Shown: positions 5,779 to 62,800 of the stretch, in pieces
How the letters are laid out: each line of letters starts with the position of its first letter
Numbering within the stretch: the stretch's first letter is position 1
Notes under the pieces: model-generated
What the model saw: the letters and a program-made list of their open reading frames with translations, nothing else
What the model was told of the DNA's origin: nothing
Databases searched by the model: none
DNA from: Auricularia sp. M13
Lineage: Eukaryota; Basidiomycota; Agaricomycetes; Auriculariales; Auriculariaceae
Assembly: GCA_037042915.1 (NCBI GenBank)
Contig: CM073200.1
Coordinates: forward strand, 1,798,001-1,862,000
DNA: 64,000 bases
Direction: 5' to 3'
Program-made: the position numbers and the translations under genes

Positions 5779-6470
5779 CTAAGCCATTTTAGCATACCGT
5801 CTCCGCGTCTGCTCAAGATCCCCGCGCAGCTCGTCGCCGTCGCTGCATGCGACAACATACAGAGCCTCACCAGGCACAGTCAACGTCCCGTCCGTGCCGC
5901 AGCGCCAGCTGGACATTGTACGACCAATGAGCGCGTACAACGGCCATCCGTCGCCGCGCTCGCCGCCGTCGAGCGCGGCGAAGAGCGGCGCGAAGCCGTG
6001 CACAGCTTGTACAGCGTGAGGAATAGCTGGCCGCGCGCGATCAGAGAGCATATTGACGTCCAGCGGCTCTTTCGCCGTGCGCGATAGCACTGTGACCAAA
6101 AGAGGAAGGCTTTTCCGAATGCCAGAGTAGCCTAAGTCAATGCGGGACCAGAGAGCGGGCGAGGCAAGGGCGGCCGCACGCCACGCTCGCGACACATGCG
6201 AGACTGCAATGCGGATGCGCAATGGGAGGGGGACGAAGCAAAGCAAGAGCACTTCGTCGGAATGTGCATAAGACTATCCCGGTTCCAGTTATGCATTGCG
6301 CCGCAGAGCGTGCGCAAAGTCGAGTCCATGACGCACTCAAAGACTTGGTTGATAACCTCAGCACTGTGGACAATGATCAGGACATCCCGAGCCAAACCAT
6401 TGCTCGCTTACTCTGTACCGTATGGTAGCGCATCGAAGTACTCGTTGACGCAGCTCATCATTGCAAAAGT
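5779..6470 (-). pseudogene. F-box gene, 5' truncated and frameshifted
   Basis: Minus-strand homologue of the local F-box family. The end of exon 1 (MMSCVNEYFDALPYGTE) is followed by a donor gtaagc, an acceptor ccacag, and then SAEVINQVFECVMDSTLRT. The F-box reads VLLLCFVPLPLRIRIAVSHV followed by SRAWR and ALWSRIDLGYSG. Inside the F-box, at the expected IPDE, one base is missing, so the upstream and downstream halves are in different frames. Exon 1 is cut at its 5' side by the 1.66 kb repeat that starts at 6470. The remaining LRR-like body is short and ends at 5779, so the 3' part is missing too. It is most likely non-functional. Confidence 0.65.
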
Positions 6471-8129
6471 ACCAGGAGAAATGATAAAACATCCCCGTTA
6501 AGAATGTCATGTTTTGTTTAAATATTCCCGTTAAGGATTGCCAGCCAGATATTCCATGTCCATGAGATATATTATGTGGTGTGTTAAATACACTGGCTGC
6601 TCGCCAATAGAGCTTCAATTAAGATCCGGAGTTAAATTTTCTCTGCGATCAATGTTCTCATTGTTGATCAAACAACCAGAGCCATGTCAATTACAATTGT
6701 TTCTATGGGCTACAGCTGCTGAATTCGACTGCATTTATGGACTGTACGACTGTTTAATCAAATCAAATTTTGTCAATTAACATAAAACATGATACACAAA
6801 CCTGTCAAGACTGAGTTGTACAGGCAGGTGTCAATCCTAGCGGCTGTTGAACCACGACAGCTGCCACACTCCCTTGCAGCTGTCAAACCATTGCAGCTGT
6901 CGACAGTTGTCAGCTGTCGTCCAGGAATGGCATTGACGTACCTGCACATCAAGGATGAATCAAACAGTCTTGGCTCTGATTGATCAAATGTATACTGATG
7001 AAACAAATGAAAATGTGTACAAAATGACCTTCGCAGGATGGAACCATCGCTCCCTATTTTCACCTGCTGCATGAGGCATGAGTGGCGGCAGACCATCCAT
7101 GAGCATTAACCAACTGGACTAAGTGACCATGCTCAACCACTGTTAATTACTTAATATATCCACACATATCTCACACGTTAAATTAGTTGGCTGGCCGATT
7201 AATGTCCAGATGCCAATGTCAAACTGTCGCAGGTGCCAAAAGCATCTGTCATAGTCAGGCCTGGTAGATGCCTCTTAGACAGCTGCCCAACCTGCCGACA
7301 GCACTATAAACCATCAGCCACTCATGATTGAACATCTTGAGATTCAATAATCAGAGTGTTCCAAACGCAACAAGTCCTTTTCATGATTGAACGTACTGCA
7401 GTGCAACCCAAAAGAGTGTTTTGAGAGTACAAGTCCTTCCAGGTTCAGCATGTTTGAACGATCAGTTTTGATTGATCAAGCACACGCTTGGCCCTCGAGG
7501 CCCTGTGTGTTGCAGTACTATGCACAGTAAGTAATGCGAGAGTGACAAGATAGTTCGATATGATACACAAGACTTGATGGCACCACCCGTGGGGGGGGGG
7601 ATGATGCGAGAAGAGCCTGTGCAGTGGGAGCCCAGTGTGGATTGGTGACCTGAGTACCGGATGGTTCATTGATGGGACCAGTGTTCATCCTGTCGAAGAC
7701 ATTAAATTAAGATTTGAGATTTGACAAAGGCTACACCAAGACTCTGGCTATAGAATGGTATTATGATATTCCTTTTTAATGAGCATTTCATCTGTGTACG
7801 AGTGAGCAAAGTCTGCCAGCCAGTGTAGCAGAGTCACCTCGCGGCCTCAGCCACCAGTGTTTCTCTCACTGCATTTAAGATGTCGAACTAGGATTCGAAA
7901 TTCAACAATTTCAGCACCAATGGTATAGTAAGAAGTCTGTCTGGTAACCTCCTTTTTAGGATGACATTTCGACTCTATACATGTGAGCAAACTCTCACGA
8001 AGGGTTATTACATCATTCCAAACATTACAACTGTAAAACTCGGCAGAAGCCTGAGGCGAGAACGACAATGTCTGCTGTATGGTGTACACTATCCCAGGCA
8101 TCCATATGAAGTCAATTGGTCCAGTTCCC
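6470..8129 (+). repeat. 1.66 kb non-coding AT-rich repeat, copy 1
   Basis: This segment recurs almost unchanged at 32388-34043 (same orientation) and 34131-35781 (inverted). It is clearly richer in A and T than its surroundings and has no ORF longer than about 110 codons. The common left boundary is TACCAGGAGAAATG; the right end reads CAATTGGTCCAGTTCCC. Features inside are a cluster of CAGCTGTC/GACAGCTG motifs (about 6855-6925 and 7274), a TATA-like ctataaa near 7305, a G run near 7590, and near the left end an AAAACAT/ATGTTTT inverted repeat. Seen in the reverse direction the left end reads ...CTCCTGG followed by T in all three copies. That would fit a Helitron 3' end, but no TC start is visible. 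The family is not settled. This copy cuts exon 1 of the F-box pseudogene on its left. Confidence 0.75.
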
Positions 8130-10610: not shown

Positions 10611-11628
10611 CTACGTCACATACTCAAGCCGTACCGGCCGCACGCGCCAAAGCTCAGCGAGCGCCCGCCTATCCTCGTCACCGACCTCAAAACCAAGCAG
10701 CCGAACGGACACCAGGCGCCGCAAATGCGCGCACTCGGCGGCGAGCTGCACCACGCGGTGTATATCATCGGGCGGGCGCGCCGCCGCCGCAGCGGCAGAG
10801 CGGATTGTCACCGTGCGCAGCGAGATCCCAGCGGGTGCGTGTGCGAGGAGCTCAAACGCGTCAGCGAGCGCAGCGCCACGCGGCATTCCCAGGCCCAGGA
10901 TGCGCATGCGCGCGAGCGCCGCGAAGACGGGCCGCACGCGCGGCAGCAGCACGCGCGCGTCGCCGCGCAGGCGCAGGTCAAGTCGTTCGATCCGAGGCGC
11001 CGCGACTCGCGAGCGCGATGGCGTCCACTAGCGGCGCCGCGCCGGCGTCCATGTGCGCGACGATGGCGATGCGCAGCTCGGTGAGCGTGCGGCGTGAGTG
11101 CGCGATAAGGCGCGTGCAGGCGGGCACGGGCAGCGTCTGAGCGTGTCGGTGCACAGGCTGAATGCTGGCGGCAATGCGGGAAGATTCGCGGCGGTCTCCG
11201 GCGGTACGATGTCCGGACGCGTCATTGGTACGTACACGCTCAGGTTGCGCAACACGGGCATGTGCGGGAAGAGGGCGAAGAGCGCCTGGGTGATGCTGGC
11301 GCTGGCGGAGAGCGTGTTCAACCAGAGGTTGATGATCAGCGTCTCGAGTCGGGCGAAAGCAGAGCATGACGTCGGTTCGGTCGTGTGTATGTCGTCGTGC
11401 AAGTGCAAGATGATGCTCTGCAGCTGGATGTGGCGGGTGTGCGGGCATTGCTTCCCGAGAGCCAGGCGAGTCGTAAAGGCAACGCGCGAGCCGCCCCGGA
11501 TAGTGGACTCGCGAAAGACCTGGACGACCGTCGCTGACGAGGCAAGGACGGCTAGAACGCCTATGGCGCATAAAAATGCGTGGTCGCTGTCGTCCACGGA
11601 GGCGTAAAACTAGCGATGTAGGCTGCAT
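10611..11628 (-). pseudogene. LRR-like gene family B, copy 1, frameshifted
   Basis: Paralogue of the intact genes at 36843-37853 and 62753-63799. The N-terminal part (DDSDHAFLCAIGVLAVLASS, then GGSRVAF, LALGKQCPHTRHIQLQSI) is in one frame. The middle part (VPACTRLIAHSRRTLTELRI) is in a second. The C-terminal part (LLPRVRPVFAALARMRIL through RRLVSVRLLGFEVGDEDRR and RLEYVT) is in a third. This means at least two frameshifts, near 11145 and 10980, relative to the intact copies. The family has regularly spaced leucines like an F-box/LRR receptor body but no F-box I can see. It is likely non-functional. Confidence 0.65.
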
Positions 11629-13161
11629 GAGTAGAATATGACGAAAGCGCAGGCTGAGCTTGACGTTTTACGGTAGTCGTAAGAACGGCCAGGAGCATAT
11701 GGGGAGTCTGCTCTTCATATGCGGTGTGGGCGGTCCGAAGATGAAAAACGACACTGGTTTGCCACCCGTGTTGATTGCACGCGAGATCGATGAGGACGCT
11801 GTAGAGTATTTGAAACTCCGCTACTCGTTCTTTCCGTTCTGCCACTCGGCTTTCATCCCAAAGGTCCGAGCTTGTTTTGTACGCTGCAATCTGAACTAGC
11901 ACTCTGTAGCTCCCCAGAGCCTGCTCGACGACTCGCCGGCTCAATATCAGAGCTACTTACTTGCCAGACATCCCTCTAGTCTCCTTAAAGCAGGCCACTA
12001 CTTACAGCGCGTCCTTGAACCGGCGAGCGGGCGGACGCGCTGTGTAGCGTCTGCCATCACTCGGCCTGCCTTATCGGGTGGTCGATTCCGGAAATATTGG
12101 ATTACTGAAAGTTTCGATACAGATGTTACTTCAGAGAGAACCAATTGAAATGAGCTTCCATGCTTACCGACTGTGGACAGGAGCAAGCGTGCGATGAGGA
12201 CGAGGCTGCGAGTCGTGCGGGATTTGATCAAGCGGATTGCTCGGAAGCTGATGCCGCATCTAATCTCGACCGCCCCTAAAGTGCGGAGTTTGAGCAATTG
12301 ACAAGCGGGTATCATCTGATACCTAACTAACATCCCTCTCTCCGTCTCGATTTTCTCGCTTGCCAACCGCGCGCCGCTACTGGGCGCTCAGAGCCATGGT
12401 TCTTTCAAAGCTTTCGGACATGTTTTAAATGAATACTTCAGCCGCCCTTTTTTTTCCTCGCGCACGCTGCCGGTTTTGCCTTGGTCGCGCTGCTAAGGAC
12501 CATAACTCTTCAACGACCCTGGACGTTTCACACGCCGTATGCACCGTGCTTGCATTAGGAGGCTCTCCGTTCCTTTGTAGGCCGCACATTGTCTGCTTCC
12601 TCGGGCCTGCGGGATAACTGCGCTCGCGGATCACGCATGCTCTCTCACGGTGAGGGCGATTAACAGCATGCTCGTACCACCTAAAATGCTGACAGGTCGG
12701 AACAGCATACCGATATCACCTGCGACCCGGGTTCATTCCCAAAAACGCCTGCAGTCCGACTCGACACAAGACCGTTCTGGTCGGGGACACCCCCCAGCCT
12801 CATGTTTCACTGCTGCGACGTGGTTCTCCCGCCTCCGCCTCCATTTCCGACCCGGCCCGCGACCCTCGCTGGAGGCGAAGGCTTGTTCCAGAGGCAGATG
12901 CTGTATTTCAGGCCAGCTCATTGATATCATCGGCGAGGTCACTGTCTGATCCAATACCGATGGCGTGCGTCTCCGGGACTGAACTCACGCAGTGTACAGT
13001 TACAGTATCCGATAGCCGCCACCGGGGGAAGAGGCAGTGTGAGTTTTCCCGACCAGAGGGAGCGCTCGTCCCGGGAGTTTCACGGTCGGACTGGACTCCC
13101 GCAAAGGCGTGCAGGTATTAATACCTCACCGTCACCTTCCTCTGGCTCCCACCGAATCAAC
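11629..13161. other. Intergenic region before the MLKL-type gene
   Basis: About 1.5 kb without a supported gene. The part next to 11628 still matches the upstream flank of the family B paralogues (GACGTTTTACGGTAGTCGTAAG versus GACGTTTTACGGTAGCCGTAAG near 63832). Short ORFs around 12000-12370 and 12650-12950 have no recognisable motif. The last few hundred bases should hold the promoter of the gene starting at 13162. Confidence 0.3.
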
Positions 13162-17134: not shown

Positions 17135-17444
17135 CTAGCCGTACAGTCTGGGTAAACAGACAGGCAACGCACAGTCGGACATAACGTGCAACTGCTCCCC
17201 CCATAGTCCGTCGTCCAAATGCGCGCCAGCAAGTTGACCTGGGAATGGGCGTTGGCGGATGGACGAGAACAGACGAGATAGAACGGGCTCCTCCGTGTAG
17301 TCTGTTTCTGCGTCGTATCTGCAATCCACGACGTTGATCGCGACGAGCTCGAGAACGGGATCGGCCAGCGGGGACAGAGCATGACGAACGCGCGCGACGT
17401 CCGCGTATCGGGCGTTCGTTCGCCTTTCTGAAGACTCCGTCAAC

Positions 17445-18111
17445 TAGGGTTCTGTGCAAAATGCCCGAGCTATTCTCAACATGTTTTTTAACCAACCCGT
17501 TATTTAACAGGTGTTTAAAACAGTGTTTAAAACACAGCTTATGTAATGCATTAGAAACATCGAGACAAGCTTAAAAAAAGCAACCTTCCAGTCAAATTTG
17601 CCCAGGTATACCTCCTCATACCCTAGGATATCACAGATACCTGCCAGGTATGATTGGCAATGCATGGTACTTGAAACTTTAATGCTCGATGTAATGTTGT
17701 AAACTTCTACCTGTGAGAATATAGGTCAGAATGAGCCACTTTCTATACTAGATGTTTAACAACACTCTCAGGTCTGGGCACTGGAAGAATGCTGTTCTCT
17801 TGTGAGATCTTGCTAATTAGTTACTTACAGCACTGAGACAGCTCCTGCAGTTGAATGAATCTTTCACTGATCACCTGTGTGAGATGCGAGATGCAGCTAA
17901 CTCATATGCTACCAGCAATGGAGGCTGCTAGCATATAGCAGGAAATGGCACAAAGACAAAATCCATGCCTCCAACACATGTCTCAGAGGTCCTGCAACTG
18001 AACTGTATTTTGTTTTTAAACAGCCAATTTTCGGACATCTGTTTTAAAACAATGTTTTAAACACTGTTTTTTAACCCGTGTTTAAAACGTGGCATTGTAC
18101 ACAGAACCCTA
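17445..18111. mobile_element. hAT-type MITE, 667 bp, 8 bp target duplication
   Basis: Terminal inverted repeats read TAGGGTTCTGTGCAAAATGC on the left and TAGGGTTCTGTGTACAATGC on the right (read inward), matching at 18 of these 20 positions. The element is flanked by a perfect 8 bp direct repeat CCGTCAAC (17437-17444 and 18112-18119). An 8 bp duplication with a TAGGG-type end is diagnostic of the hAT superfamily. The interior is AT-rich with repeated GTTTAAAAC motifs near both ends (17512-17540 and 18040-18088), which may be subterminal transposase sites. There is no transposase ORF, so it is non-autonomous. It interrupts the C-terminal coding part of the F-box/LRR gene. Confidence 0.85.
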
Positions 18112-19301
18112 CCGTCAACTCCTTCGCTGTCGGAGCGGTCGCAAAGAGGGAGAGGATCTCGAGCGCTGGACAGCGCACTCGCTCGCCGGTAGCCTGTTGC
18201 TTCCAACGCTTTCCACGGTAGAATTCGTGGAAGAGCGCTTCGACGGGGCACAGGTCGCGCGGATCGCGGTAGGTCTCGCAGACGTCCACGCGAATGCAGC
18301 GCAGGACGGGGTAACTCGCAGCACCCTGCAAGAAGCAGGATAGATAATGAGCTTCGATGCGCAGGTAACCCAGACATTGTGTAAGGCCCGGCATGCGGTC
18401 CAGCTCGATGCGCGGTTCGGCAGTGTATGCGTCGATGCTGTAGCTACGGCACCAAGATCTATCGCCGGAGACGACTGAGACTACTGCGACGTTGTTATCT
18501 GAGCGCAGCACATCCGTGCAGAGCCTCACGCTGAGCGGCCCACCGTCCGCTCGCCAGCCCAGTGGGTGTTCCCAGTCCATGCCGTTTTCGTACTCGCACA
18601 GGTAGTGGAACTCCGGGGGATTGCTGAGCTTTAGGCACAGCGGATTGGAGGGGTCTGCTTCAAGCCTGTAGTCGTGAAAGACGAGGCGCCTCACAGCTGC
18701 CCGGGCGCAGTCGATGGTGATGGGCGGAATAGACGGCGCCTCAGGCTGGAAGAAATCAACGATCGCGAGTCGCGGGAAATGCTGGGATAGACGTGTCGTA
18801 GATGTATCATTGTATAGATTTAAGCGGAGGACGTTTGAAAACGCGGGTATCCGCTCCTGCCCGAGCGTTGTGCTAGACAACTCGAGCTCACAAAGACGCG
18901 GTGCATAGCCGCCCAAAAACTCTGCAGGGCATATGGCGGCTTGACCCAAATATGAGTCGAGGTGGAAGCCCGAGAGAACCAGGCTGCGAAGGCGCGGCGC
19001 GGGATGTTGAAGTGCGACAGATAGCTGAACTGATAGCCCGTCTGGTATACAGATAGACAGCGCGACAAGGACAGGAAGTGATGCAGTCAAGGCGAGTAGG
19101 ATTTCCGGTACGGCCGCGAGAACAGAGGGAGGATATGTCCCCTGACGCCTGGTCGGGAATACCAGTGTCAACCTTAGACGCAGATCTTTTCGCAGGACAT
19201 GCCCGAGCACTTGATTAAATCGTTTGAGCTGCGCATCAATGTCGAGTTCTGTGCGTGCTCTATCGGTGCAGTCCAGCGTGGTAGGAATGTAGAGACCTGC
19301 C

Positions 19302-19485
19302 TGTTAGATTCCTTGCTTCCGAGTCGAGGATACGCGGATAGAGCAAAGCCAGAGTGTATTTTGGTTGTCCGTATGCCTAAGGTACACAAGACGGGACCGG
19401 ACAACCAGATGAGAAACAAAGGCAAACACCGCGCACCGTTCACGCACGCGGAGCGGAAACACGTCACGGATCTATAATGCTAACA
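19302..19485 (-). repeat. LTR (3' LTR of the gag-only element)
   Basis: 184 bp terminal repeat with TG/CA ends, nearly identical to the copy at 20860-21043; one T/C difference is visible (tgtattttgg versus tgtattctgg). It is preceded, on the element strand, by the purine-rich tract. Confidence 0.9.
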
Positions 19486-19521
19486 CTCCCCCTGTTTCTG
19501 CAGAGCGTGCTCCCCCATAAC

Positions 19522-20532
19522 CTAAGACCCGAAGCACTCGAGGTCGCCGTCAATAGGGGTGGTCGCAGACGGCACAGACGAGGCGGGGAGAGCATATGTC
19601 GCATAACCGGCCGGTGCTGAATCCAAATCGGGCTCGTCCAGAAAACTAAAAGCAGCAGCAGCACGCGCAGGTGGATCATCATCGTCAGAAGCATAACGGT
19701 CGCCTTCCATGATCGTCCTGCAGTCTGCGGCGATGTGTCCTGGGCGCCCACAACGGTGGCACTCTGTCGATCGAGTGTGCTGCGAGGGACCAGCGGCAGG
19801 ACGACGAGCTGGAGCACGGCGAGCTCCTCCACGGGGCGCACCAAATCCTCCGCGCGATGCGCCGGGTCCTCCGTGTGATGCACCGGGTCCTCCGCGGTAC
19901 GATGCCATAGCCCTGGCCTCCTCGCGTTCGGCAGCCTCAGCATCGTCCTCAGCAGCTCCTGCAAGACGTGAGTGCTCGTTGACGAGGCGACTCTTCACGA
20001 AAGCGACCGTGAGGAGGTTGTCGGGAACGGTGTCCAGCGCAGCGATAATCGTGTCGTAGTCCTTGGGCAAGCCCTCGATGAGAACGACCATAATGTCGTC
20101 GTCAGGAACGACGGCTCCGATGCCGCGAAGGCGCTCGACGGTCTGATCGACGCGCCCGATCCACTGGACCATGGTCTCGTCGGGCGACTTGCGCATCTTG
20201 AAGAAGTTGCGGCGCATGACGAGCCGAGTACCAAAGCCGCGGGGTCGGAAGTACGTCTCTAGTCGTTTCCAGAGCTGGCGAGCCGTATCATTTTCGTGCA
20301 CCAGACCGTACTGAGAGTAGTCAATCGTGTTGATGATGGTGGAATAGCAGCGGAGCGCAGCAGCGTTATATTCCGTGTCGGAAGCGTAGTCGGTGACGGC
20401 GGCATCGCCGGTGACGTGCGGCCAGAGTCGGAGAGCAGCCAAGATGCCGGTGATCGCCTTGCGCCAACCCTCGTAGTTGGACGAGTCCAGCTTCGTGATG
20501 TTCGGAACATAGGGGTTCGGGGCGACGGACAT
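19522..20532 (-). CDS. Gag protein of the Copia-type element
   Basis: A single open frame, 336 residues from ATG 20532-20530, or 365 from an upstream ATG at 20619. The N-terminus (ITKLDSSNYEGWRKAITGIL) is the typical start of Copia-type gag polypeptides of the UBN2 group. The centre has the expected helical region (LWKRLETYF, MRKSPDETMVQWIGRVDQTV). The C-terminal part is rich in Gly, Ala and Arg and carries one CCHC zinc knuckle, CHRCGRPGHIAADC. In retrotransposons this protein forms the particle and binds the RNA. The frame ends shortly before the 3' LTR, with no pol region following. Confidence 0.85.
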   Translation of the reverse strand: MSVAPNPYVPNITKLDSSNYEGWRKAITGILAALRLWPHVTGDAAVTDYASDTEYNAAALRCYSTIINTIDYSQYGLVHENDTARQLWKRLETYFRPRGFGTRLVMRRNFFKMRKSPDETMVQWIGRVDQTVERLRGIGAVVPDDDIMVVLIEGLPKDYDTIIAALDTVPDNLLTVAFVKSRLVNEHSRLAGAAEDDAEAAEREEARAMASYRGGPGASHGGPGASRGGFGAPRGGARRAPARRPAAGPSQHTRSTECHRCGRPGHIAADCRTIMEGDRYASDDDDPPARAAAAFSFLDEPDLDSAPAGYATYALPASSVPSATTPIDGDLECFGS

Positions 20533-20673
20533 GATGCGGGGCACGAGGAAACGGCGGGTGCGGTGGAGAGGAGAAAAGATGGGAAAGAGGGTCGGCGGGA
20601 GATCCCGGAATCGTGCCACGTTAACCGTGCTGCGGATGTCGGATCACCAGACCGGCAACATCGTAAACCAGGT

Positions 20674-20810
20674 CGCGGGCACCAGCCAGCGCAAGACACC
20701 TGGGGTGGGCCGCGGGCACCAGCCAGCGCAAGACACCCAATGGGCCGCGGGCACCAGCCAGCGCAAGACGCCCATGTGACGGCCGCGGGCACCAGCCTGC
20801 GCAAGTCGCC
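20674..20810. repeat. Four-unit tandem repeat in the leader of the LTR element
   Basis: Four copies of a unit CGCGGGCACCAGCCAGCGCA followed by AGAC(A/G)CC start at 20674, 20711, 20746 and 20784, with periods of 37, 35 and 38 nt. They lie between the 5' LTR and the gag start on the element's strand. Tandem repeats in untranslated leaders are common in LTR elements; a role in packaging or translation is only a guess. Confidence 0.75.
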
Positions 20811-20859
20811 GTCGTCGTGGTTTTGATGAACGGGAACCACGTTCACCGTGATCTGGTTG

Positions 20860-21043
20860 TGTTAGATTCCTTGCTTCCGAGTCGAGGATACGCGGATAGA
20901 GCAAAGCCAGAGTGTATTCTGGTTGTCCGTATGCCTAAGGTACACAAGACGGGACCGGACAACCAGATGAGAAACAAAGGCAAACACCGCGCACCGTTCA
21001 CGCACGCGGAGCGGAAACACGTCACGGATCTATAATGCTAACA
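20860..21043 (-). repeat. LTR (5' LTR of the gag-only element)
   Basis: 184 bp copy of the terminal repeat. It is followed on its outer side by the CTGCC target duplication at 21044-21048. On its inner side, on the element strand, the sequence reads CAACCAGATCACGG, where a primer-binding site is expected; I cannot match it to a tRNA by eye. Confidence 0.9.
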
Positions 21044-21359
21044 CTGCCGACCAAGCTACCGTGTAAAACTGCCGTGACACCGATGCTGGAGACCACAGGC
21101 TGGCATATGGCAAATACTGCAGCGTTTCCGCAACCAGCTCGTCAGGAAGCGGTAGTGCGCTCATTGCGCGTTCCACAGAGCGGCGTCCGGGCGAACTGCT
21201 CCTGATGGTGCGGAGCAAAGGTTCGGACGGCTGGTTGGAACTCCGGTCCGTCGTTGTTCCGTCGCGCGCCTCTCCTCGATCCCCATTGCGATTATTACAC
21301 GCTAATAGGTTCAACAAAATATCTCCGCTTTTTACAGAGTAATATCGGGAGAGATCCAA

Positions 21360-27125: not shown

Positions 27126-28780
27126 ATGTTGCCGGTTGACCACGATCCGTCTGCCCTTCGCGCCGCGCTCACCGCCGATTTCGCGGCTGTCTCGCGCGAC
27201 GCCAAGCTGTGTGTCAAAATTTACATTGCGTTTCTCCCATAAGCTGATTTTCTTATAGAAAATCACAGGTCGAGCAAGTCTTCGAGCAGCTCATGGAATC
27301 CACGAGGCGCATCCTCCTTGACCAACTGTGCAAGTGGAATGACAACAGATCTATTACTTCAGTGCTCCCCGAAGAACTGTTGGCTTCATGCTTCGCGTTT
27401 CTGCCATTCCGCGATCACTTCACGGCTTCGCACGTCTCACGGGCATGGCGGAACGTCTCGCAGCACTACCCCTCCGTGTGGTCGGAACTAGAGATATCGG
27501 CAGATTATTCTGGCTTAATGTCTCTTCTGGATCTTGCGCTAAGTCGCAGCGGAGACTGTCCCATTGACCTGAGAATCTGGACGTGGTTCGAAGGCTGCGA
27601 CGTCGAGCTGCGTTCTGGGCTACCTCGGTTGATTCACCGCCAAATGCATCGCATGCGTACACTCGAAACTTGTCAAACTGTTGTCCTTGATGACCCAATG
27701 CTGCTGCTCGAACGTGTAGACGGCTACTATATCTCTCTATCCTCCCGCTGTCTGGAGCTCTCCGCATCATTCGGCAGGCTGCACATGCTCCACGTACGCC
27801 TGTGCTTCCTTCCCACCTCCTTCAAGGGCTCTATCGACTCAGTGCGAGAGCTCGAGGCGTCTTTACGTCTCGAAGATGACGATTCGCAAGTTGGCATGCT
27901 GCCGCACCTGTTTGCGAAGTTTCCCCGGATGGAATCGTTCGCCTTAACGGAAATTTGGGAGGAGCAGATGCCCGCAATGCCTCGTGGCCCGGTGCCGCTG
28001 TCACTCACCCGCCTGCGACTCTTGGCGCTTCCTATCGAAGCACCAAGCGTGCAGGATTTGGTCGCGCTGTACTCGGGATGGACAACGCCGCAGTTGAGGC
28101 AAGTTGAAGTGTGCGGCAGTCCCTCCACGATATCCGACGAACCCTCCGTTCGCACTGTGCGACAGTTCTTTGCCCGCGCAGTCGAGCTCTCCATCATCGA
28201 TTTTTTCGACGAATTAGATTTGCTCACGATCTCTTCCAAGGATGCAGCGGGCGGCACGCGAACGCTGGAGTTCTATCGGGGAGATTGGGCATATGAAGCC
28301 CGTCCGCAAGAGCGGCGTGCGCTCGCAGCCTGGCTGTCAATTGGCCAGTCGTGTGCGCTGCTCCGCTCGGTCCAACTAGCGGCCGAGGAGCTCAACGAGC
28401 TGATCAACCTAGGAGGCTGCTTCCCGTCTGTTCCCACAGTCGGCATTTACCTTGAGGAGTCCATTCCCCACGGTGGCGAGTCCGCCAGCGACAATGCTGT
28501 CAAGGCACAGGTCACTTGGTCCTCGCTCGCAGTTCTCAGTCGTCTGCCGTCGAGTTTTCCCGCTCTGGAGTCGTGCTTCTTGGATACGCATGCTCGCAGG
28601 CGTTGGCACAAACATGCACATGATGCGTGTGCACGAGCTCTCCTGGATGAGATAGTAGTGCATGCTGTCCCAGGCCTTCCCGTGCTCCATATTCGCGGGA
28701 TCAGCAGGGAAGGCATTGCTGCGATCGACCCGCACGACCTAGAGCGGCTCTCCGTTCAGTTGGAGTTTGATCTGTCGTAG
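27126..28780 (+). CDS. F-box protein with LRR-like body, intact
   Basis: Two exons: 27126-27208 (83 nt; MLPVDHDPSALRAALTADF) and 27259-28780, split by a 50 nt intron (donor gtgtgt, acceptor ttatag), giving 534 residues. I chose the upstream ATG because all relatives in the window share the same 83 nt exon 1 and a phase-2 intron. The F-box is at about residues 60-105 (VLPEELLASCFAFLPFRDHF, then TASHVSRAWRNVS). The body has spaced leucine-rich segments and ends with the family motif LPVLHIRGISREGIAAIDPH and LSVQLEFDLS. Expected role: substrate receptor of an SCF (Skp1-cullin-F-box) ubiquitin ligase; the substrate is unknown. The start codon lies at the edge of the inverted-repeat insert, so its original leader is displaced. 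A decayed inverted copy follows at 29.4-31.9 kb. Confidence 0.85.
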
Positions 28781-29437
28781 AAGTGGAGGAACTCGGGAGA
28801 TTCGAGATGTCACCTTTAATATCATTGCACACTGCACAATATGGCCCGCCATTTGGTGTCTAGTCGTGTAACAAGACTGTTTGCCAATCAACTGGTACAC
28901 AAGTTTTAGATCCGGTTTTTGCGTTGCGGACTGCGAAGATTTGCTTTGCAGCTGTGTGGGACCCGCTGCACTGAGGTGCTCGACAATGCCGTACACAGTC
29001 GACGATCAGTCGAGAGGTCATCTCAGCCCTCGACCCGCACGTCCTCAGTCATGTCTCCATGACGATTCACTGGCAGTTTGACATTCTGCAGGATTGACGC
29101 GGGCGGATTTGTACCGGGAGTGCCCCTGTAAAAGAGACGAAGGATGAGGAATGAATGAAGATTCCAAATTCAGAAAGACATCGGCTGCTCCGCACCCCTT
29201 GGCCTTGGTTGGGATTTAGTCTCATCTCACGCGGCGTGCCACAACATGCAAAACATAGATCCAGAGATTTAATGCTGGCTTATCTGGTGAGACTGGCATT
29301 CGTCGTCAAGCCCCAAGGTGCAGTGCGTCCTGCGCCGCAGATCTAGTCCTTGCAGCGGGGTTGCACATATAACAGGCTTATCACATGAGTATATTCGTGC
29401 CGGATTGCGTCGCACAAAAGCTTGAAATGTACTGTCA
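28781..29437. other. Spacer between two convergent F-box copies
   Basis: About 650 nt between the 3' ends of the intact gene and its inverted pseudogene. No gene is supported; it should contain both 3' untranslated regions. Confidence 0.4.
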
Positions 29438-30052
29438 CTACGACGACAGATCGAACTCGATCTGGACGGACAGTGCCTCCAGGTCGCGCGGGTCGACCGC
29501 AGCAATGCCTTCCCTGCAGATCCCACGAATATGGAGCATGGGAAGGCCTTGGACAGCGTGCACTACTAGCTCATGTAGCAGAGCACATGCACACGCATCG
29601 TGTGCATATTTGTCCCAACGACTGCGAGCATGCGTATCCAAGAAGCACGACTCCAGAGCGGGAAAATTGGACGGCAGACGACTGAGAACTGCGAGCGAGG
29701 ACCAAGTGACCTGTGCCTTGACAGCATTGTCGCTGGCGGACTCGCACTCCACGAGGTAAATGCCGAGTGTCCGGACAGACAGGAAGCAGCCTCCCAGGTT
29801 GATTAGCTCATCGAGCTCCGCGGCTGCTAGTTCAACCGAGCGGAGCAGCGCAGACGACTGGCCAATTGACATCCAGACTGCGAGCGCAAGCCGCTCTTGC
29901 TGACAGGATTCATATACCCATTCTCCCCGATAGAACACCAGCGTTCGCGTGCCGCCCGCAGCATCCTTGGAAGTGATCTTGAGCAGCTCTAATTCGTAGA
30001 AAAAAATCGATGATGGAGAGCTCGACTGCGCGGGCAAAGAACTGTCGCACAG

Positions 30053-30373
30053 CACAGGGAGCAGGGTAGAGAATCCATAGAGTATCTATTGAGTATCCCG
30101 ACTTGACATTCAGATGAATGGCACAAGTTTCCCAAGAGTATCATATCCTGAACTACTCTGGAGATACTCTATACACAAGGTAATATATTGGATGAGTATC
30201 CCTTGAGGCACAAATGTTCTCATGAGATACCCATTCAATATTCTACCTTGTGCATAGAGTATCTCCAGAGTATTTCAGGATATGATACTCTTGGGAAACT
30301 TGTGCCATTCATCTGAATGTCAAGTCGGGATACTCAATAGATACTCTAAGGATCCTCGGCCTTGCTCCCAGTG
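30053..30373. mobile_element. Fold-back MITE, 321 bp, 3 bp target duplication
   Basis: Long inverted repeats make up most of the element. The arms begin CACAGGGAGCAGGG on the left and CACTGGGAGCAAGG on the right (read inward). They become essentially perfect from GAGTATCTATTGAGTATCCC for about 80 bp. It is flanked by CAG on both sides (30050-30052 and 30374-30376), and the uninterrupted paralogue at 28.1 kb has a single CTG (CAG on the other strand) there. A CACT/CACA end with a 3 bp duplication fits a CACTA (CMC)-like MITE. There is no coding capacity. Confidence 0.75.
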
Positions 30374-31244
30374 CAGTGCGAACGGAGGGTTCGTCGGATA
30401 TCGTGGAGGGACTGCCGCACACTTCAACTTGCCTCAACTGCGGCGTTGTCCATCCCGAGTACAGCGCGACCAAATCCTGCACGCTTGGTGCTTCGATAGG
30501 AAGCGCCGAGAGTCGCAGGCGGGCGAGTGACGGCGGCACCGGGCCACGAGGCATCCTGGGCATCTGCTCCAGCTGATCCGGCGTTCCGGAGACTCTGGAC
30601 CGCTCCGAAGCAACGGCGGTTTTCACCGATGAGGCAAACGATTCCATTCGGGGAAACTTCGCAAATAGGTGCGGCAGCAGGCCAACTTGCGAGTCGTCGT
30701 CTTCGAGACGTAAAGACGCCTCGAGCTCTCTCACCGAGTGAATAGAGCCCTTGAAAGAGGCGGGAAGGAAGCACATGCGTACGTGGAGCATGTGCAGCCT
30801 GCCGAACGACGCGGAGAGCTCCAGAAGGCGGGAGGATAGAGATATAGTAGCCGTCAACACGTTCGAGCAGAGGCATTGGGTCATCAAGGACAACAGTTTC
30901 CCAAGTTTCGAGCGTACGCAGGCGATGCATTTGGCGGTGAAACAACATAGGCAGCCCAGAACGCGGCTCGACGTCGAAACCTTCGAATGACGTCCAGATT
31001 CTCAGGTCAATGGGACTGTCTCCGCTGCGACTTAGGGCAAGATCCAAAAGTGAAGCTAGGCCTGGATAACCAGCCGATATCTCGATTTCCGACCACACGG
31101 CGGGGTAGTGCAACGATACGTTCCGCCAGGCCTGACAGACGTGCGAGGCGTTGAAGCGATCGTGGAATGGCAAGAACGCGAAGCAGGAAGCCAACAGCTC
31201 TTCGTAAAGAACTGAGATTGGACTACCGTCGTTCCACTTGCATA

Positions 31245-31729
31245 CTGTAGAGCTATTAATTATTACCGCGTCACGCGTCACGGACGTCGCGCGGCGCGGT
31301 AATGGAGACGTTTTGTAGTATGTCACGCGAGCCTCATGGTAATAGCGTGTCACGGTGCTCGAGCACATGAAATACCCATTATGAACGCCCGGAGCTTCGT
31401 GCCTTCGGCGCGCATTACATATGTACACACATGGAGGGCCGTGTGCAACATGCGAAGGTGTAGAAGTGCCATCTAGCGCCTACCGAGTTGAGTTAGAGCA
31501 GAATGCAGGGTTCTGCAGCCAGTGGACAGCGACAAAGGATGTTGGTATGTTTGCTTCCGAGTTCCGTCGTACGTGCTCAAGACAGCAGCACTTGCTCTTT
31601 TGCATCCCAGCAATAAATTCCCTCGAAGAATTTGCCTTACGGTCTTGGTCACATGTCACGTGGGTGCTGCGGTGATGTTTCCGACATGTCACGGTCGAAG
31701 CTCAGCGGTAATAATTCATAGCTCTACAG
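31245..31729. mobile_element. TA-flanked MITE, 485 bp (Tc1/mariner-like)
   Basis: Terminal inverted repeats start CTGTAGAGCTAT(T/G)AATTATT and continue ACCGC, 25 bp with one mismatch. It is flanked by TA on both sides (31243-31244 and 31730-31731). The intact paralogue lacks this insert at the matching point of exon 2 (just before the codons for CKWND). A TA duplication points to the Tc1/mariner superfamily. The interior has several GTCACG/CGTGAC motifs but no transposase. Confidence 0.8.
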
Positions 31730-31935: not shown

Positions 31936-32387
31936 TGCGCTGTGCTTTACATAAACTCCGCAGAGTGCCGCGATTTGAGTCCGAAACCTCAGTAGTGTGG
32001 GTGAGATACAATCAGGATACAGTAAACCTGAATCAGGCCGTAATATCCAAACGGAGCATTATTTCCAAGCGCTGAAAGGAGCAGCAGTCATGGTTGTTAC
32101 TTCGTCACACGCTACATCAAGTCGTTTTATAACCTTCACTGCACCCAGTAAGTAGCTACAGTACAGCACCCATTATTGGTGTTAGAGCTCGTGCAAATTA
32201 TAGCCGCAGCGCGAGCGACTGTCCATGTCGGCGGTCGCTCTGGCGTGGCGCAACACAGCTCATGGCATCTCGCGCTGCCGTGTACAGCTCGGCGGCACGT
32301 GCGCCTCTTGCCAGGCACCAGTGCGCACGGCGTCCGGGTTGACAGCTCCGAGCGAAGGAGACGTATGCTTGCCGCGCGAGCCAAAAG
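31936..32387. other. Spacer between the F-box pseudogene and the palindrome
   Basis: The first 30 nt hold the pseudogene's leader, including the recurrent ACTCCGC (GCGGAGT on the coding strand). The rest shows no supported gene. Confidence 0.4.
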
Positions 32388-34043
32388 TACCAGGAGAAAT
32401 GATAAAACATCCCCGTTAAGAATGTCATGTTTTGTTTAAATATTCCCGTTAAGGATTGCCAGCCAGATATTCCATGTCCATGAGATATATTATGTGGTGT
32501 GTTAAATACACTGGCTGCTCGCCAATAGAGCTTCAATTAAGATCCGGAGTTAAATTTTCTCTGCGATCAATGTTCTCATTGTTGATCAAACAACCAGAGC
32601 CATGTCAATTACAATTGTTTCTATGGGCTACAGCTGCTGAATTCGACTGCATTTATGGACTGTACGACTGTTTAATCAAATCAAATTTTGTCAATTAACA
32701 TAAAACATGATACACAAACCTGTCAAGACTGAGTTGTACAGGCAGGTGTCAATCCTAGCGGCTGTTGAACCACGACAGCTGCCACACTCCTTGCAGCTGT
32801 CAAACCATTGCAGCTGTCGACAGTTGTCAGCTGTCGTCCAGGAATGGCATTGACGTACCTGCACATCAAGGATGAATCAAACAGTCTTGGCTCTGATTGA
32901 TCAAATGTATACTGATGAAACAAATGAAAATGTGTACAAAATGACCTTCGCAGGATGGAACCATCGCTCCCTATTTTCACCTGCTGCATGAGGCATGAGT
33001 GGCGGCAGACCATCCATGAGCATTAACCAACTGGACTAAGTGACCATGCTCAACCACTGTTAATTACTTAATATATCCACACATATCTCACACGTTAAAT
33101 TAGTTGGCTGGCCGATTAATGTCCAGATGCCAATGTCAAACTGTCGCAGGTGCCAAAAGCATCTGTCATAGTCAGGCCTGGTAGATGCCTCTTAGACAGC
33201 TGCCCAACCTGCCGACAGCACTATAAACCATCAGCCACTCATGATTGAACATCTTGAGATTCAATAATCAGAGTGTTCCAAACGCAACAAGTCCTTTTCA
33301 TGATTGAACGTACTGCAGTGCAACCCAAAAAGAGTGTTTTGAGAGTACAAGTCCTTCCAGGTTCAGCATGTTTGAACGATCAGTTTTGATTGATCAAGCA
33401 CACGCAAGCCCTCGAGGCCCTGTGTGTTGCAGTACTATGCACAGTAAGTAATGCGAGAGTGACAAGATAGTTCGATATGATACACAAGACTTGATGGCAC
33501 CACCCGTGGGGGGGATGATGCGAGAAGAGCCTGTGCAGTGGGAGCCCAGTGTGGATTGGTGACCTGAGTACCGGATGGTTCATTGATGGGACCAGTGTTC
33601 ATCCTGTCGAAGACATTAAATTAAGATTTGAGATTTGACAAAGGCTACACCAAGACTCTGGCTATAGAATGGTATTATGATATTCCTTTTTAATGAGCAT
33701 TTCATCTGTGTACGAGTGAGCAAAGTCTGCCAGCCAGTGTAGCAGAGTCACCTCGCGGCCTCAGCCACCAGTGTTTCTCTCACTGCATTTAAGATGTCGA
33801 ACTAGGATTCGAAATTCAACAATTTCAGCACCAATGGTGTAGTAAGAAGTCTGTCTGGTAACCTCCTTTTTAGGATGACATTTCGACTCTATACATGTGA
33901 GCAAACTCTCACGAAGGGTTATTACATCATTCCAAACATTACAACTGTAAAACTCGGCAGAAGCCTGAGGCGAGAACGACAATGTCTGCTGTATGGTGTA
34001 CACTATCCCAGGCATCCATATGAAGTCAATTGGTCCAGTTCCC
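32388..34043 (+). repeat. 1.66 kb repeat, copy 2 (left arm of the palindrome)
   Basis: Same orientation as copy 1 and nearly identical. Visible differences are a shorter G run, one extra A in CAACCCAAAAAG, CACGCAAGCCC instead of CACGCTTGGCCC, and GGTGTAGTAAG instead of GGTATAGTAAG. The last difference is shared with copy 3, so copies 2 and 3 are closer to each other than to copy 1. Confidence 0.85.
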
Positions 34044-34130: not shown

Positions 34131-35781
34131 GGGAACTGGACCAATTGACTTCATATGGATGCCTGGGATAGTGTACACCATACAGCAGACATTGTCGTTC
34201 TCGCCTCAGGCTTCTGCCGAGTTTTACAGTTGTAATGTTTGGAATGATGTAATAACCCTTCGTGAGAGTTTGCTCACATGTATAGAGTCGAAATGTCATC
34301 CTAAAAAGGAGGTTACCAGACAGACTTCTTACTACACCATTGGTGCTGAAATTGTTGAATTTCGAATCCTAGTTCGACATCTTAAATGCAGTGAGAGAAA
34401 CACTGGTGGCTGAGGCCGCGAGGTGACTCTGCTACACTGGCTGGCAGACTTTGCTCACTCGTACACAGATGAAATGCTCATTAAAAAGGAATATCATAAT
34501 ACCATTCTATAGCCAGAGTCTTGGTGTAGCCTTTGTCAAATCTCAAATCTTAATTTAATGTCTTCGACAGGATGAACACTGGTCCCATCAATGAACCATC
34601 CGGTACTCAGGTCACCAATCCACACTGGGCTCCCACTGCACAGGCTCTTCTCGCATCCCCCCCACGGGTGGTGCCATCAAGTCTTGTGTATCATATCGAA
34701 CTATCTTGTCACTCTCGCATTACTTACTGTGCATAGTACTGCAACACACAGGGCCTCGAGGGCCAAGCGTGTGCTTGATCAATCAAAACTGATCGTTCAA
34801 ACATGCTGAACCTGGAAGGACTTGTACTCTCAAACACTCTTTTGGGTTGCACTGCAGTACGTTCAATCATGAAAAGGACTTGTTGCGTTTGGAACACTCT
34901 GATTATTGAATCTCAAGATGTTCAATCATGAGTGGCTGATGGTTTATAGTGCTGTCGGCAGGTTGGGCAGCTGTCTAAGAGGCATCTACCAGGCCTGACT
35001 ATGACAGATGCTTTTGGCACCTGCGACAGTTTGACATTGGCATCTGGACATTAATCGGCCAGCCAACTAATTTAACGTGTGAGATATGTGTGGATATATT
35101 AAGTAATTAACAGTGGTTGAGCATGGTCACTTAGTCCAGTTGGTTAATGCTCATGGATGGTCTGCCGCCACTCATGCCTCATGCAGCAGGTGAAAATAGG
35201 GAGCGATGGTTCCATCCTGCGAAGGTCATTTTGTACACATTTTCATTTGTTTCATCAGTATACATTTGATCAATCAGAGCCAAGACTGTTTGATTCATCC
35301 TTGATGTGCAGGTACGTCAATGCCATTCCTGGACGACAGCTGACAACTGTCGACAGCTGCAATGGTTTGACAGCTGCAGGAGTGTGGCAGCTGTCGTGGT
35401 TCAACAGCCGCTAGGATTGACACCTGCCTGTACAACTCAGTCTTGACAGGTTTGTGTATCATGTTTTATGTTAATTGACAAAATTTGATTTGATTAAACA
35501 GTCGTACAGTCCATAAATGCAGTCGAATTCAGCAGCTGTAGCCCATAGAAACAATTGTAATTGACATGGCTCTGGTTGTTTGATCAACAATGAGAACATT
35601 GATCGCAGAGAAAATTTAACTCCGGATCTTAATTGAAGCTCTATTGGCGAGCAGCCAGTGTATTTAACACACCACATAATATATCTCATGGACATGGAAT
35701 ATCTGGCTGGCAATCCTTAACGGGAATATTTAAACAAAACATGACATTCTTAACGGGGATGTTTTATCATTTCTCCTGGTA
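34131..35781 (-). repeat. 1.66 kb repeat, copy 3 (right arm of the palindrome)
   Basis: Inverted copy of the repeat. It shares the GGTGTAGTAAG variant with copy 2 but has CACGCTTGGCCC like copy 1. Its outer boundary differs: read inward the flank is CCAT then TACCAGGAG, whereas copies 1 and 2 both have AAAAG then TACCAGGAG. Confidence 0.85.
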
Positions 35782-36842
35782 ATGGTGCGCGAGCGAGGCC
35801 AGATGGATCTGTGTGCATTTGACCTGCCGGCACTGTCTTGTGGAAACTAGAGCTCATCGTTCCGAATGGAGGAGCGCGCAGAATCAGGCGGGAAGCACAT
35901 AAGGTCAAGGAACGAATCGAGCCAGACAGTGCGGACGCCGCACGAGTACAGATAACGCACAGCGTTGCCTGAGATCCGAGTATCCGTGCACGCAGCGCAC
36001 ATTGGGAAGCGAGATCTACGGAAAATATAGCGCCAGTTCTGGACGTCCAAGCCCGGCAGATTACAGCACAGCTAGCCCCAGCAGAACAGGAACCTGGGTA
36101 GATTGCACGCTGCGCATTGGCGTGTACAGCCCGGGTACTAGTCAGGTAGTTGATGGCTGCCAGTCACGCGACGCACAATGCGTCCGGGCTGGCCGCGGCG
36201 CGTCGCCGTCGAAGCGAGTCCTGCAGCGCGAGCCAGGCCGGACGGACTGACGCGAGCATGTTAGAGCCTTTCACGCTAGCCGCTGTCGGTAGACATTAGA
36301 GCCAATAACGCCGTCAATAATAAAAGATTAGCGGTGAGTGGGAGCAGACGCTTGCGGCGCGCGACGCGCACGCTCACAATGAGGCAGTGGGGCAATGGAG
36401 GGGTAAGCAGACGGACATTTCAATGGTCTCCGAGCATTGCGCGCGCGTAGGGGCCCTGTCGGTCGGAGCAAGGTGAGTGTTGGTTTCAAACTCCGAGCTG
36501 TCTTTCTTGCCCACCCTCCTCTCGCACGCCGGCCGTTCGCCCTCTGGGCCGCGACGCAATTTGTTATTTGCGGCGTCCTCTCAATCCTCTTCCCCGCGGA
36601 ACCCCGTGTGTGCACCTAGCCAAGAGTTGGGCCAACACTCCGATTGTTAGTTTGTGAGCACCAAGCTCGACATTAGCCTCATCAACCTCATGTGCAATCA
36701 GCCCGTAATTTAGTCTGGTGGATGTGTCGGACTTAACACGCAACCCACGCCGAATACACGAGGGGACTCGCCGTGTGTTTATGGACGGTCTTACCGCCAC
36801 CGTAAAACGTCGAGACCAGGCTCTGCATTCGTCCTATTCATC
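35782..36842. other. Region upstream of the family B gene; conserved promoter block
   Basis: 35782-36600 shows no gene I can support. It includes, on the minus strand near 36110-36200, a degenerate match to the piece found in intron 2 of the HECT gene. From about 36645 to 36842 the sequence matches the upstream flank of the paralogue at 63.8-64.0 kb: GCACCAAGCTC(G/A)ACATTA, TGCAATCAGCCCG, and CGCCGAATACACGAGG followed by ACTCGCCGTGTGTTTATGGA. The promoter was therefore duplicated with the gene. Confidence 0.45.
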
Positions 36843-37853
36843 ATGCGGCCTACATCAGTGCAGTTGCGCCTTCCGGTGGACGACAGCGACAGCGGATGTT
36901 CATGCGCCATTACAAACATAGCCGCCCTGGCCTCTTCAGCGAAGGTTGTCCAGGCCCTTCACTACACCACCCTCTTGGGCGGCTCGCGCGTCGCCTTTGC
37001 GACTCTGCTGCATCTTGGGAAGCAGTTCCCGCACACCCGCCAGCTCCGCCTGCAGAGCATCGTCTTGGAGCACGACGCCACACTCACGACTCCCGTCTCG
37101 CCCCTACCATTGTTCGCACAACTCGAGACCCTGATCATCAAACCCGGGTCGAACACGCTTGCGGCTAGCACCAGCATGACCCAGGCGCTCTTCGCTCTTT
37201 TGCCGCACATGCCTGTGCTGCGCTGCCTGAGCATGTACGTGCCGATTCTGCGGCCGCACGTCGTGCCGCGGGAGACCGCAACACATCTGCCCGCGCTACC
37301 GCCCGCATTCAGCCTCTCGACGTTCGTGTGCACCGGCAGGCTCCCCGTACCCGCCTGGGCGCGGCTCATCGCACACTCGCACCGCACGCTGGCCGAGCTG
37401 CGCATCGTCGTCGTGGTCGTGCACCTGGACCCGAGCGCGGCGGAGCTAGTGGAAGCCATCGCGCTCGCCGCACCGCGGGTCGAACGACTCGACCTGCGCC
37501 TGCTCATTGACGAGCGCGTGCTACTCCCGCGCATGTGGCCCATCTTTGCGGCGCTCGCGCGCCTGCGCACCCTGAGCCTGGAAATGCCGCACGGCGCCGC
37601 CCTCGCCGACGCGTTTGAGCTCCTCGCGCACGCGCACGCGGGGATTCCGCTGCGCACGCTGTCCATCCGCTCTCCAGCCTCAGTGGAGCGCCCATCTGAG
37701 GATATCCCCCGCGTGATGCAGCTCGCCGAGTGCGCGCAATTGCGGCGCCTGGTGTCCGTCCGTTTGTTCGGCTTTGAGATTGGCGATGAAGGTCGGCGGG
37801 CGCTGACTGAGCATTGGCGCGCGCGGCGGGTGCGGTTTGAGTATGTGACATAG
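36843..37853 (+). CDS. LRR-like protein, family B copy 2, intact
   Basis: A single open frame of 336 residues from ATG 36843 (MRPTSVQLRLPVDDSDSG) to RVRFEYVT. The start is supported by the paralogue at 63799 (MQPTSVQWRLPEENSD). The protein has repeated leucine-rich strands about 25-30 residues apart (for example HTRQLRLQSIVL, LETLIIKPG, LRCLSMYVPI, LAELRIVVV, VERLDLRLL, LRTLSLEMP, RRLVSVRLFGFEIGDEG), like the solenoid part of F-box/LRR receptors. I see no F-box in this frame or directly upstream. It may be a stand-alone LRR-like protein or have an unseen upstream exon. The family is unnamed as far as I can tell. Confidence 0.7.
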   Translation: MRPTSVQLRLPVDDSDSGCSCAITNIAALASSAKVVQALHYTTLLGGSRVAFATLLHLGKQFPHTRQLRLQSIVLEHDATLTTPVSPLPLFAQLETLIIKPGSNTLAASTSMTQALFALLPHMPVLRCLSMYVPILRPHVVPRETATHLPALPPAFSLSTFVCTGRLPVPAWARLIAHSHRTLAELRIVVVVVHLDPSAAELVEAIALAAPRVERLDLRLLIDERVLLPRMWPIFAALARLRTLSLEMPHGAALADAFELLAHAHAGIPLRTLSIRSPASVERPSEDIPRVMQLAECAQLRRLVSVRLFGFEIGDEGRRALTEHWRARRVRFEYVT

Positions 37854-62650: not shown

Positions 62651-62800
62651 GATCCCAAACGTCGTTTTAGCATGGTCATGTCTTTTTGTGCCATTTTTCG
62701 AGCGAATGGTTTCTCAGTTGAATATTTGCTAAAACAAACACGAAAAACGCAATCAAAATGGCCCAAAAAGGGTGTCAAAAACGGCACCGTGAAACGGCCT
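62651..62800. other. AT-rich junction between two duplicated blocks
   Basis: About 150 nt that match neither the F-box copy on the left nor the family B gene on the right. It contains GTTTTAGCA and TGCTAAAAC as an imperfect inverted repeat and many A/T runs. It may be a remnant of a small element at the duplication breakpoint. It encodes the altered last residues of the adjacent gene. Confidence 0.4.

Follow-up and report, generated by a model that had tools for sequence, protein, structure and literature searches.

This locus raises the question of whether three minus-strand coding pieces, separated by two mobile elements, belong to a single gene. The window, the whole stretch of DNA that was analyzed, is 64,000 nucleotides in length. 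Within it, a minus-strand host frame begins with an ATG at position 21164, the only in-frame ATG of the ORF, and ends at the stop codon at 17135-17137. It is interrupted by two unrelated elements, an inverted-repeat element (MITE) and an LTR element. The favored reading, given a probability of about 0.9, is that one F-box gene, probably leucine-rich in its C-terminal part, was inactivated by two independent transposon insertions. The features are listed in Table 1.

Table 1. Positions, within the window, of the host gene pieces, the two elements, and the candidate splice boundaries.
Feature	Position	Strand	Description
Host gene piece 1	21044..21164	-	ATG to upstream copy of 5-bp duplication; F-box at about 21054-21149
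Host gene piece 2	18112..19296	-	1185 nt, stop-free; six PxLxxLxL-like motifs; no Pfam match
Host gene piece 3	17135..17436	-	stop codon at 17135-17137; no Pfam match
hAT-like MITE (putative)	17445..18111		667 bp, 40% GC; no transposase match
8-bp target duplication CCGTCAAC, two copies	17437..17444 and 18112..18119		adjoin MITE ends
Whole gag-only LTR element	19302..21043	-	1742 bp; same orientation as host gene
LTR upstream of gag (and in host-gene sense)	20860..21043	-	184 bp, 183 identical to other LTR
LTR downstream of gag	19302..19485	-	184 bp; purine-rich tract before it
5-bp target duplication CTGCC, two copies	19297..19301 and 21044..21048		flank LTR element
gag stop-to-stop frame	19522..20643	-	first Met at about 20532; copia-type gag about 19963-20445; CCHC knuckle about 19717-19761
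Candidate GT...AG boundaries flush with MITE	17444..18112	-	669 nt, hypothetical intron
Candidate GT...AG boundaries flush with LTR element	19301..21044	-	1744 nt, hypothetical intron

The terminal inverted repeats of the MITE are 21 nucleotides in length and 90% complementary, with the sequence TAGGGTTCTGTG... at the terminus. Terminal inverted repeats of hAT elements are short and have the form YARNG, and the TAGGG that begins the MITE termini matches this form. The hAT target duplication preference is nTnnnnAn, and the MITE duplication fits one of its two fixed positions. Subterminal repeats are also present. The 8-bp duplication, the short repeats starting with TAGGG, the subterminal repeats, and the lack of a transposase match are all common to non-autonomous hAT elements and hAT MITEs; the putative hAT assignment is drawn from the duplication length and termini only. 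A Pfam search of one MITE-internal frame, one frame over its left edge, and one neighboring ORF returned nothing above the cut-off. Unlike hAT MITEs, the element has no second copy or autonomous relative that could be found in the window, and a repeated family is therefore not demonstrated by the window. A literature search on hAT MITEs in basidiomycetes returned a match that concerned another superfamily. The sequence CCGTCAAC occurs seven times on the plus strand of the window, and its value as a duplication lies in its direct contact with both MITE ends.

The LTR element has ends of the form TGTTAG...CTAACA and an internal part of 1374 nucleotides, with the purine-rich sequence GAAACAGGGGGAG before the 3' LTR. 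Its three longest sense frames (373, 200, and 176 residues; frames of fewer than 100 residues were excluded) were scanned with Pfam. The 373-residue frame matches Retrotran_gag_2 (E 2.7e-28) and zf-CCHC (E 3.2e-05) and has no Pfam match to the pol domains (protease, integrase, reverse transcriptase, RNase H), while the 200- and 176-residue frames have no match. The first-pass annotation described the element as gag-only, which is supported: in its three longest sense frames, Pfam detects nothing beyond a copia-type gag and the zinc knuckle. A search of the window found no tRNA for comparison with a primer binding site and no further copies of the element. Relatives of the gag were searched for in viral and prokaryote contigs, while the start of the LTR was queried against prokaryote contigs and the terminus of the MITE against viral ones; none gave a match, which is uninformative for a fungus, as fungi are not expected in these collections.

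The element resembles the terminal-repeat retrotransposons with GAG (TR-GAG) of plants, which likewise have two LTRs, a single gag ORF, and no pol (PMC8704663). It differs in coming from a fungus and in the length of its gag, which is about 336 amino acids from the first Met compared with 562 in TR-GAG (PMC8704663). One Arabidopsis element, AT5TE33540, which is similar to ATCOPIA63 members, is described as having been observed transposing (PMC8704663). A literature search for gag-only retrotransposons in fungi, limited by its wording and not a proof of absence, found nothing. The locus adds a small gag-only copia-type element in a basidiomycete.

When one copy of each target duplication is counted, the host frame runs on across both insertion sites. 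Together with one duplication, the MITE spans 675 bp, which is divisible by 3, and the LTR element spans 1747 bp. The joined short flanks (...SRQFYTVAWSAGLYIPTTLD... and ...ATAPTAKELTESSERRTN...) keep a single frame at each site, with no in-frame stop in 1605 nucleotides of host sequence, and as read from this frame the gene is without introns in the part seen. Openness of the frame was compared with dinucleotide-preserving shuffles (n=2000). Of the 2000 shuffles, 553 left the observed frame open for piece 1 (121 nt), none for piece 2 (1185 nt), and 136 for piece 3 (299 nt), and none had all three open together. The weight of this test falls on piece 2, because it alone was never open in the shuffles. 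Piece 3 is stop-free in each of its three frames, and therefore openness alone cannot fix its frame.

Codon usage was scored with two models, one built from four further F-box ORFs in the window and one from piece 2, each with 1000 shuffles. The claimed frame of piece 3 ranks first of six by both models and is reached by 2 of 1000 shuffles (four-ORF model) and 0 of 1000 (piece-2 model). For piece 1, the claimed frame is supported by the four-ORF model, with its score reached by 0 of 1000 shuffles, but is not picked by the piece-2 model, under which 175 of 1000 shuffles reach its score and one opposite-strand frame scores higher. Among the points that count against the one-gene reading are the failure of the piece-2 model to pick piece 1, and the fact that chance could open the frames of pieces 1 and 3, the latter being open in all three.

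A very unlikely alternative is that the pieces are remnants of neighboring F-box family members that lie in frame by chance. Such fragments may be common here, as five of the nine other window ORFs scanned match Pfam F-box models, and the openness of piece 3 in all three frames is compatible with this reading. However, the exact target duplications at both junctions require no further assumption if the gene is single, and piece 3, read in the claimed frame, agrees with piece 2 in codon usage. Beyond the F-box, the pieces match the rest of the window at chance level only, with best matches at E 0.51 by protein for piece 2 and at E 0.005 over 25 bases by DNA for piece 3. According to the first-pass annotation, a single gene holds two unrelated elements and its frame can be followed through both junctions; the duplications, joined frame, shuffles, and codon usage support this. 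Piece 2, the host piece that was queried, had no relative in viral contigs. An uninterrupted copy of the gene was not found in these contigs, which are not expected to hold fungi.

The same annotation had called the host an F-box/LRR gene, of which the first half is supported for piece 1. Piece 1, which lies before the LTR element, matches the Pfam F-box model (PF00646, E 8e-05, 22.8 bits, above the cut-off of 20.5), while F-box-like (E 0.0005) falls under its own cut-off. The F-box is located near the N terminus of the host product. The leucine-rich part has support only at the motif level, with no Pfam LRR match in the host pieces. The six motifs of piece 2 were equaled by 0 of 5000 shuffles, and its count of the looser LxxLxL pattern was reached by 263 of 5000. 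A structure model of piece 2, made without an alignment, has a mean pLDDT of 34 and is useless. A PDB sequence search with piece 2 returned three matches at E values of up to 1, the best being 0.29, and no relative. The C-terminal part of the host product is probably leucine-rich, judging by the motifs.

Stops in the host frame are present inside both elements. Translation of the present allele from the host ATG would give about 44 residues, corresponding to the F-box, before a stop inside the LTR, so that its product would be an F-box without the presumed substrate-binding part. Under the favored reading, a non-autonomous hAT-like MITE would have been inserted by a transposase from elsewhere in the genome, leaving the 8-bp duplication, and a non-autonomous gag-only copia-type LTR element would have been inserted by a borrowed integrase, leaving the 5-bp duplication. 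The locus would then be a two-hit loss-of-function allele and the gene presumably now dead. As such it would be a tidy example of the loss of an F-box family member to transposons, and otherwise ordinary transposon biology.

The gene could still be active if both elements were spliced out as introns. Both elements' edges form minimal intron signals, which is the new point here and a testable oddity. Read on the gene strand, the MITE duplication is GTTGACGG and that of the LTR element is GGCAG, and each begins and ends with G. The last G of the first duplication copy and the leading T of the element form GT, and the trailing A and the G that opens the second copy form AG. The candidate junctions, with slashes at the boundaries, are acg/GTAGGG...CCCTAG/tt for the MITE and gca/GTGTTA...TAACAG/gc for the LTR element. 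Removal at these flush boundaries is always in frame, because the 8- and 5-bp duplications leave 6 and 3 extra nucleotides, or two codons and one codon, respectively. A very unlikely reading is that the MITE behaves as a new intron, and that the LTR element perhaps does as well. In its full form, which we consider extremely doubtful, this reading has both elements spliced and an almost normal protein still made from the gene; the MITE would be a newborn intron of the Introner type from a fungal DNA transposon. If this were so, the origin of an intron from a DNA transposon could be seen directly in fungi.

An exact flush in-frame GT-AG pair is present at each of the two elements, and such a pair arises at 95 of 1421 sites (MITE) and 92 of 1421 sites (LTR element) of the same coding DNA, or about 6.5% each and 0.4% for both. 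The flush pairs are, however, not the sole open in-frame ones: of the GT-AG pairs tried, 9 of 280 qualify for the MITE and 7 of 338 for the LTR element. If an in-frame pair may lie anywhere within 8 nucleotides of the edges, one is found at 329 (MITE) and 273 (LTR element) of the 1421 sites, and the post hoc surprise is therefore modest. The usual splice donor consensus has a G at position 5, which the LTR-element donor GTGTTA lacks. The MITE also has a nearer AG (GCACAG), the use of which meets an in-frame TGA. LTR elements should carry their own promoter and poly(A) signals, and this one shares the orientation of the gene. Both candidate introns are long (669 and 1744 nt); Cryptococcus neoformans introns average 63 bp, although fungi with long introns (mean 469) are also named in the same text (PMC8476143).

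Precedents for such splicing are described in two sources. The splice sites of Introners, intron-making elements of which many are MITE-like, may come wholly or partly from the duplication, codons may be added, and the median length of a family can be as high as 654 nt (PMC9860276); the maize element Ds1 supplies splice donor and acceptor sites (PMC5432752). The edges and duplications likewise give in-frame GT...AG at both elements here. The elements differ from Introners in that the splice sites are candidates in a poor context and a single MITE copy is present in the window. The published ascomycete Introner families have no duplications or inverted repeats (PMC9860276), unlike the MITE. The coincidence of GT...AG at both edges is probably due to chance, because the splice context looks poor.

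Returning to a gene inactivated by two insertions, little time would have passed since they occurred. The two LTRs differ at 1 of 184 positions (95% interval 0.014% to 3.0%), which, with the rate applied to Pleurotus, corresponds to an age of about 2.6 million years and a very wide interval. The expected number of lesions in the host gene is 0.5 to 1.3 at 0.5% neutral divergence and 1.0 to 2.6 at 1%. The absence of lesions is a weak sign of youth because so few are expected at these divergences; it bounds neutral divergence to about 1-3% only. The intact frame was rejected as proof of young insertions, the expected lesion number being too low. It had been claimed that both insertions are likely recent; the LTR element is compatible with this, while the argument from missing lesions is weaker than claimed. 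The same numbers bear on whether the gene was already a pseudogene before either insertion. This would be possible over short times, as the expected lesion number is small at a divergence of 0.5 to 1%, but no in-frame stop occurs across the host sequence, and we regard it as rather unlikely.

In Pleurotus ostreatus, near-identical LTRs are common among insertions (33% dated 0 My), and up to 50% of transposable element insertions are polymorphic between strains PC15 and PC9 (PMC4905642). The LTR element is like these insertions in its near-identical LTRs, the comparison here being of a single haplotype. An uninterrupted allele in other strains is a fair bet because of the polymorphism in Pleurotus ostreatus (PMC4905642), and the insertions provide a marker with which isolates, or both nuclei of a dikaryon, can be compared.

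An F-box gene on the minus strand is divided into three pieces by two transposable elements, a copia-type LTR element in the same orientation as the gene and a hAT-like MITE. When the short flanks are joined and one copy of each duplication is counted, a single frame runs through both insertion sites. The first-pass annotation had claimed two unrelated elements in one gene with the frame readable at both junctions, and the duplications, the joined flanks, and the shuffles below bear this out. Because the elements are not nested, they give no insertion order.

Positions of the host reading frame, its pieces, and the two elements within it
Feature	Position	Length	Place in gene order	Details
Host reading frame	21164 to 17135			minus strand; ATG at 21164 (sole in-frame ATG), stop at 17135-17137
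Piece 1	21044-21164
LTR element	19302-21043	1742 bp	first interruption	CTGCC on each flank
Piece 2	18112-19296
MITE	17445-18111	667 bp	second interruption	21-nt inverted ends, CCGTCAAC on each flank
Piece 3	17135-17436

The null for an open frame was 2000 dinucleotide-preserving shuffles. The observed frame was open in none of these for piece 2 (1185 nt), in 553 for piece 1 (121 nt), and in 136 for piece 3 (299 nt), and the three were jointly open in none. By this test, the case for a gene leans mainly on piece 2. All three frames of piece 3 are open, so openness leaves its frame unfixed and codon usage fixes it. Two codon-usage models were used, one built on four further F-box ORFs in the window and one on piece 2. 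With the four-ORF model, the claimed frame of piece 3 scored 8.9, against 0.7 and -5.1 for the alternative frames, and 2 of 1000 shuffles did as well; with the piece 2 model it scored 9.9 against -12.2 and -14.2, a level attained by 0 of 1000. The claimed frame of piece 1 is supported by the four-ORF model (reached by 0 of 1000) and is without support from the piece 2 model, where 175 of 1000 shuffles reach it and one opposite-strand frame outscores it. Piece 1 is additionally backed by a Pfam F-box match (E 8e-05, above cut-off).

This match shows that the host gene carries an F-box, one half of its original F-box/LRR label. The LRR half is plausible from motifs in piece 2, which has six PxLxxLxL-like motifs (attained in 0 of 5000 shuffles) and a mild enrichment of the looser LxxLxL motif (13, where shuffles average 8.2 and 263 of 5000 get that high). 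Pfam matched nothing in piece 2 or piece 3 when each was scanned on its own, and a structure model of piece 2 built without relatives was uninformative (mean pLDDT 34). Five of the nine other window ORFs scanned match F-box models in Pfam, and the neighbourhood is therefore F-box-rich. The host gene is probably a member of a large gene family.

Another F-box gene forms an inverted duplicate (27248-28780, plus; 29436-31479, minus) with 84-88% identity, the minus copy being spread over at least three ORFs. Three related stretches (10620-11729, 36714-37853, and 62753-64000; 76-86% DNA identity) have ORFs that are leucine-rich in look and show no Pfam match above cut-off. A partial TRIP12-like E3 ubiquitin ligase gene lies at 58252-59244 on the minus strand (TPR_TRIP12_N, E 5.6e-25; Arm, E 0.00025). 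GC per 2-kb block of the window ranges from 46 to 69%, and this range, together with the abundance of such F-box genes, is taken as a sign of a basidiomycete source.

Translation from the host ATG yields the F-box and then a stop inside the LTR after ~44 residues, and the frame of piece 2 runs into a stop within the MITE. These stops are why the present allele is read as probably loss-of-function, with two independent transposon insertions that would inactivate an F-box family member. The observation is confirmed, and its original reading, ordinary transposon insertion, appears mostly right.

The elements could instead be spliced out as introns, a reading we consider very improbable. Read on the gene strand, the MITE has the duplication GTTGACGG and the LTR element has GGCAG. 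Both begin and end with G, and the elements end in T...A and TG...CA, respectively, which produces flush GT...AG pairs. Removal is in frame at the MITE (acg/GTAGGG...CCCTAG/tt, two codons added) and at the LTR element (gca/GTGTTA...TAACAG/gc, one codon added), an outcome that is arithmetically automatic for any 8-bp or 5-bp duplication spliced this way. When each element was placed at 1421 tested sites of host coding DNA, a flush in-frame pair arose at 95 (MITE) and 92 (LTR element), and both together would be expected in about 0.4% of cases; relaxing the criterion to in-frame pairs lying up to 8 nt from the element edges gave 329 and 273. Across 5922 sites of the four other F-box ORFs, flush pairs arose at 379 and 397. 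Introners, which make introns, are described as taking splice sites from their own duplication and adding codons (PMC9860276), and maize Ds1 is said to supply splice sites (PMC5432752). Against this, other in-frame open pairs also qualify (for the MITE 9 among 280 tested, for the LTR element 7 among 338), the LTR element's donor is weak, the MITE has a rival AG whose use ends in a stop, and an LTR is expected to bring signals of its own. Both elements are also long compared with most fungal introns (Cryptococcus neoformans mean 63 bp; PMC8476143), though the same paper names fungi with a mean of 469.

Of the two elements, only the LTR element can be dated. Its LTRs are 184 bp each and differ at a single position (0.55% divergence; 95% interval 0.014% to 3.0%). 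At the rate used for Pleurotus, 1.05e-9 per site per year (PMC4905642), our arithmetic gives ~2.6 million years, with a range of <0.1 to ~14. Recent insertion had been proposed from a hardly decayed host gene. The gene is indeed free of lesions over 1605 nt, but youth does not follow. Zero lesions would have a probability of 0.27 to 0.60 if divergence were 0.5%, falling to 0.07 to 0.36 for a divergence of 1%, with the spread set by the assumed indel share. An empty allele likely exists, by analogy with Pleurotus, because up to half of TE insertions there are reported as polymorphic between two strains (PMC4905642).

The internal part of the LTR element is 1374 nt. Pfam places a copia-type gag domain (E 2.7e-28) together with a zinc knuckle in the element's 373-codon stop-to-stop frame and matches nothing in the sense frames of 200 and 176 residues; the element is therefore gag-only and non-autonomous, as first annotated. 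In this it is like the plant TR-GAGs, terminal-repeat retrotransposons with GAG and no pol, one of which was observed moving in Arabidopsis (PMC8704663). An easy passage of fungal LTR elements to a non-autonomous state is noted in PMC3248453. The element is a mild curiosity. Its leader, upstream of gag, contains four copies of a 34-nt repeat (20669-20812) with a start-to-start spacing of 35-38. Adjoining the upstream LTR, 20840-20860 resembles a fungal tRNA-His 5' half reaching the anticodon, which would fit priming by a half-tRNA; a tRNA scan of the window found none for comparison.

An 8-bp duplication flanks the MITE, whose termini are TAGGG and whose subterminal regions repeat TTTAAAAC-like motifs. 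No transposase match was found for it, and hAT would be the best-fitting superfamily, judged by structure and consensus.

A separate 1.65-kb repeat has three copies that are ~99.4% identical (6464-8129, 32382-34043, and 34131-35781). The last is inverted relative to the second, with 87 bp between them. The first copy has 44% GC and stop-to-stop frames of at most 110 residues, and no inverted-repeat ends or duplications are evident by eye. This repeat is a young mobile family.
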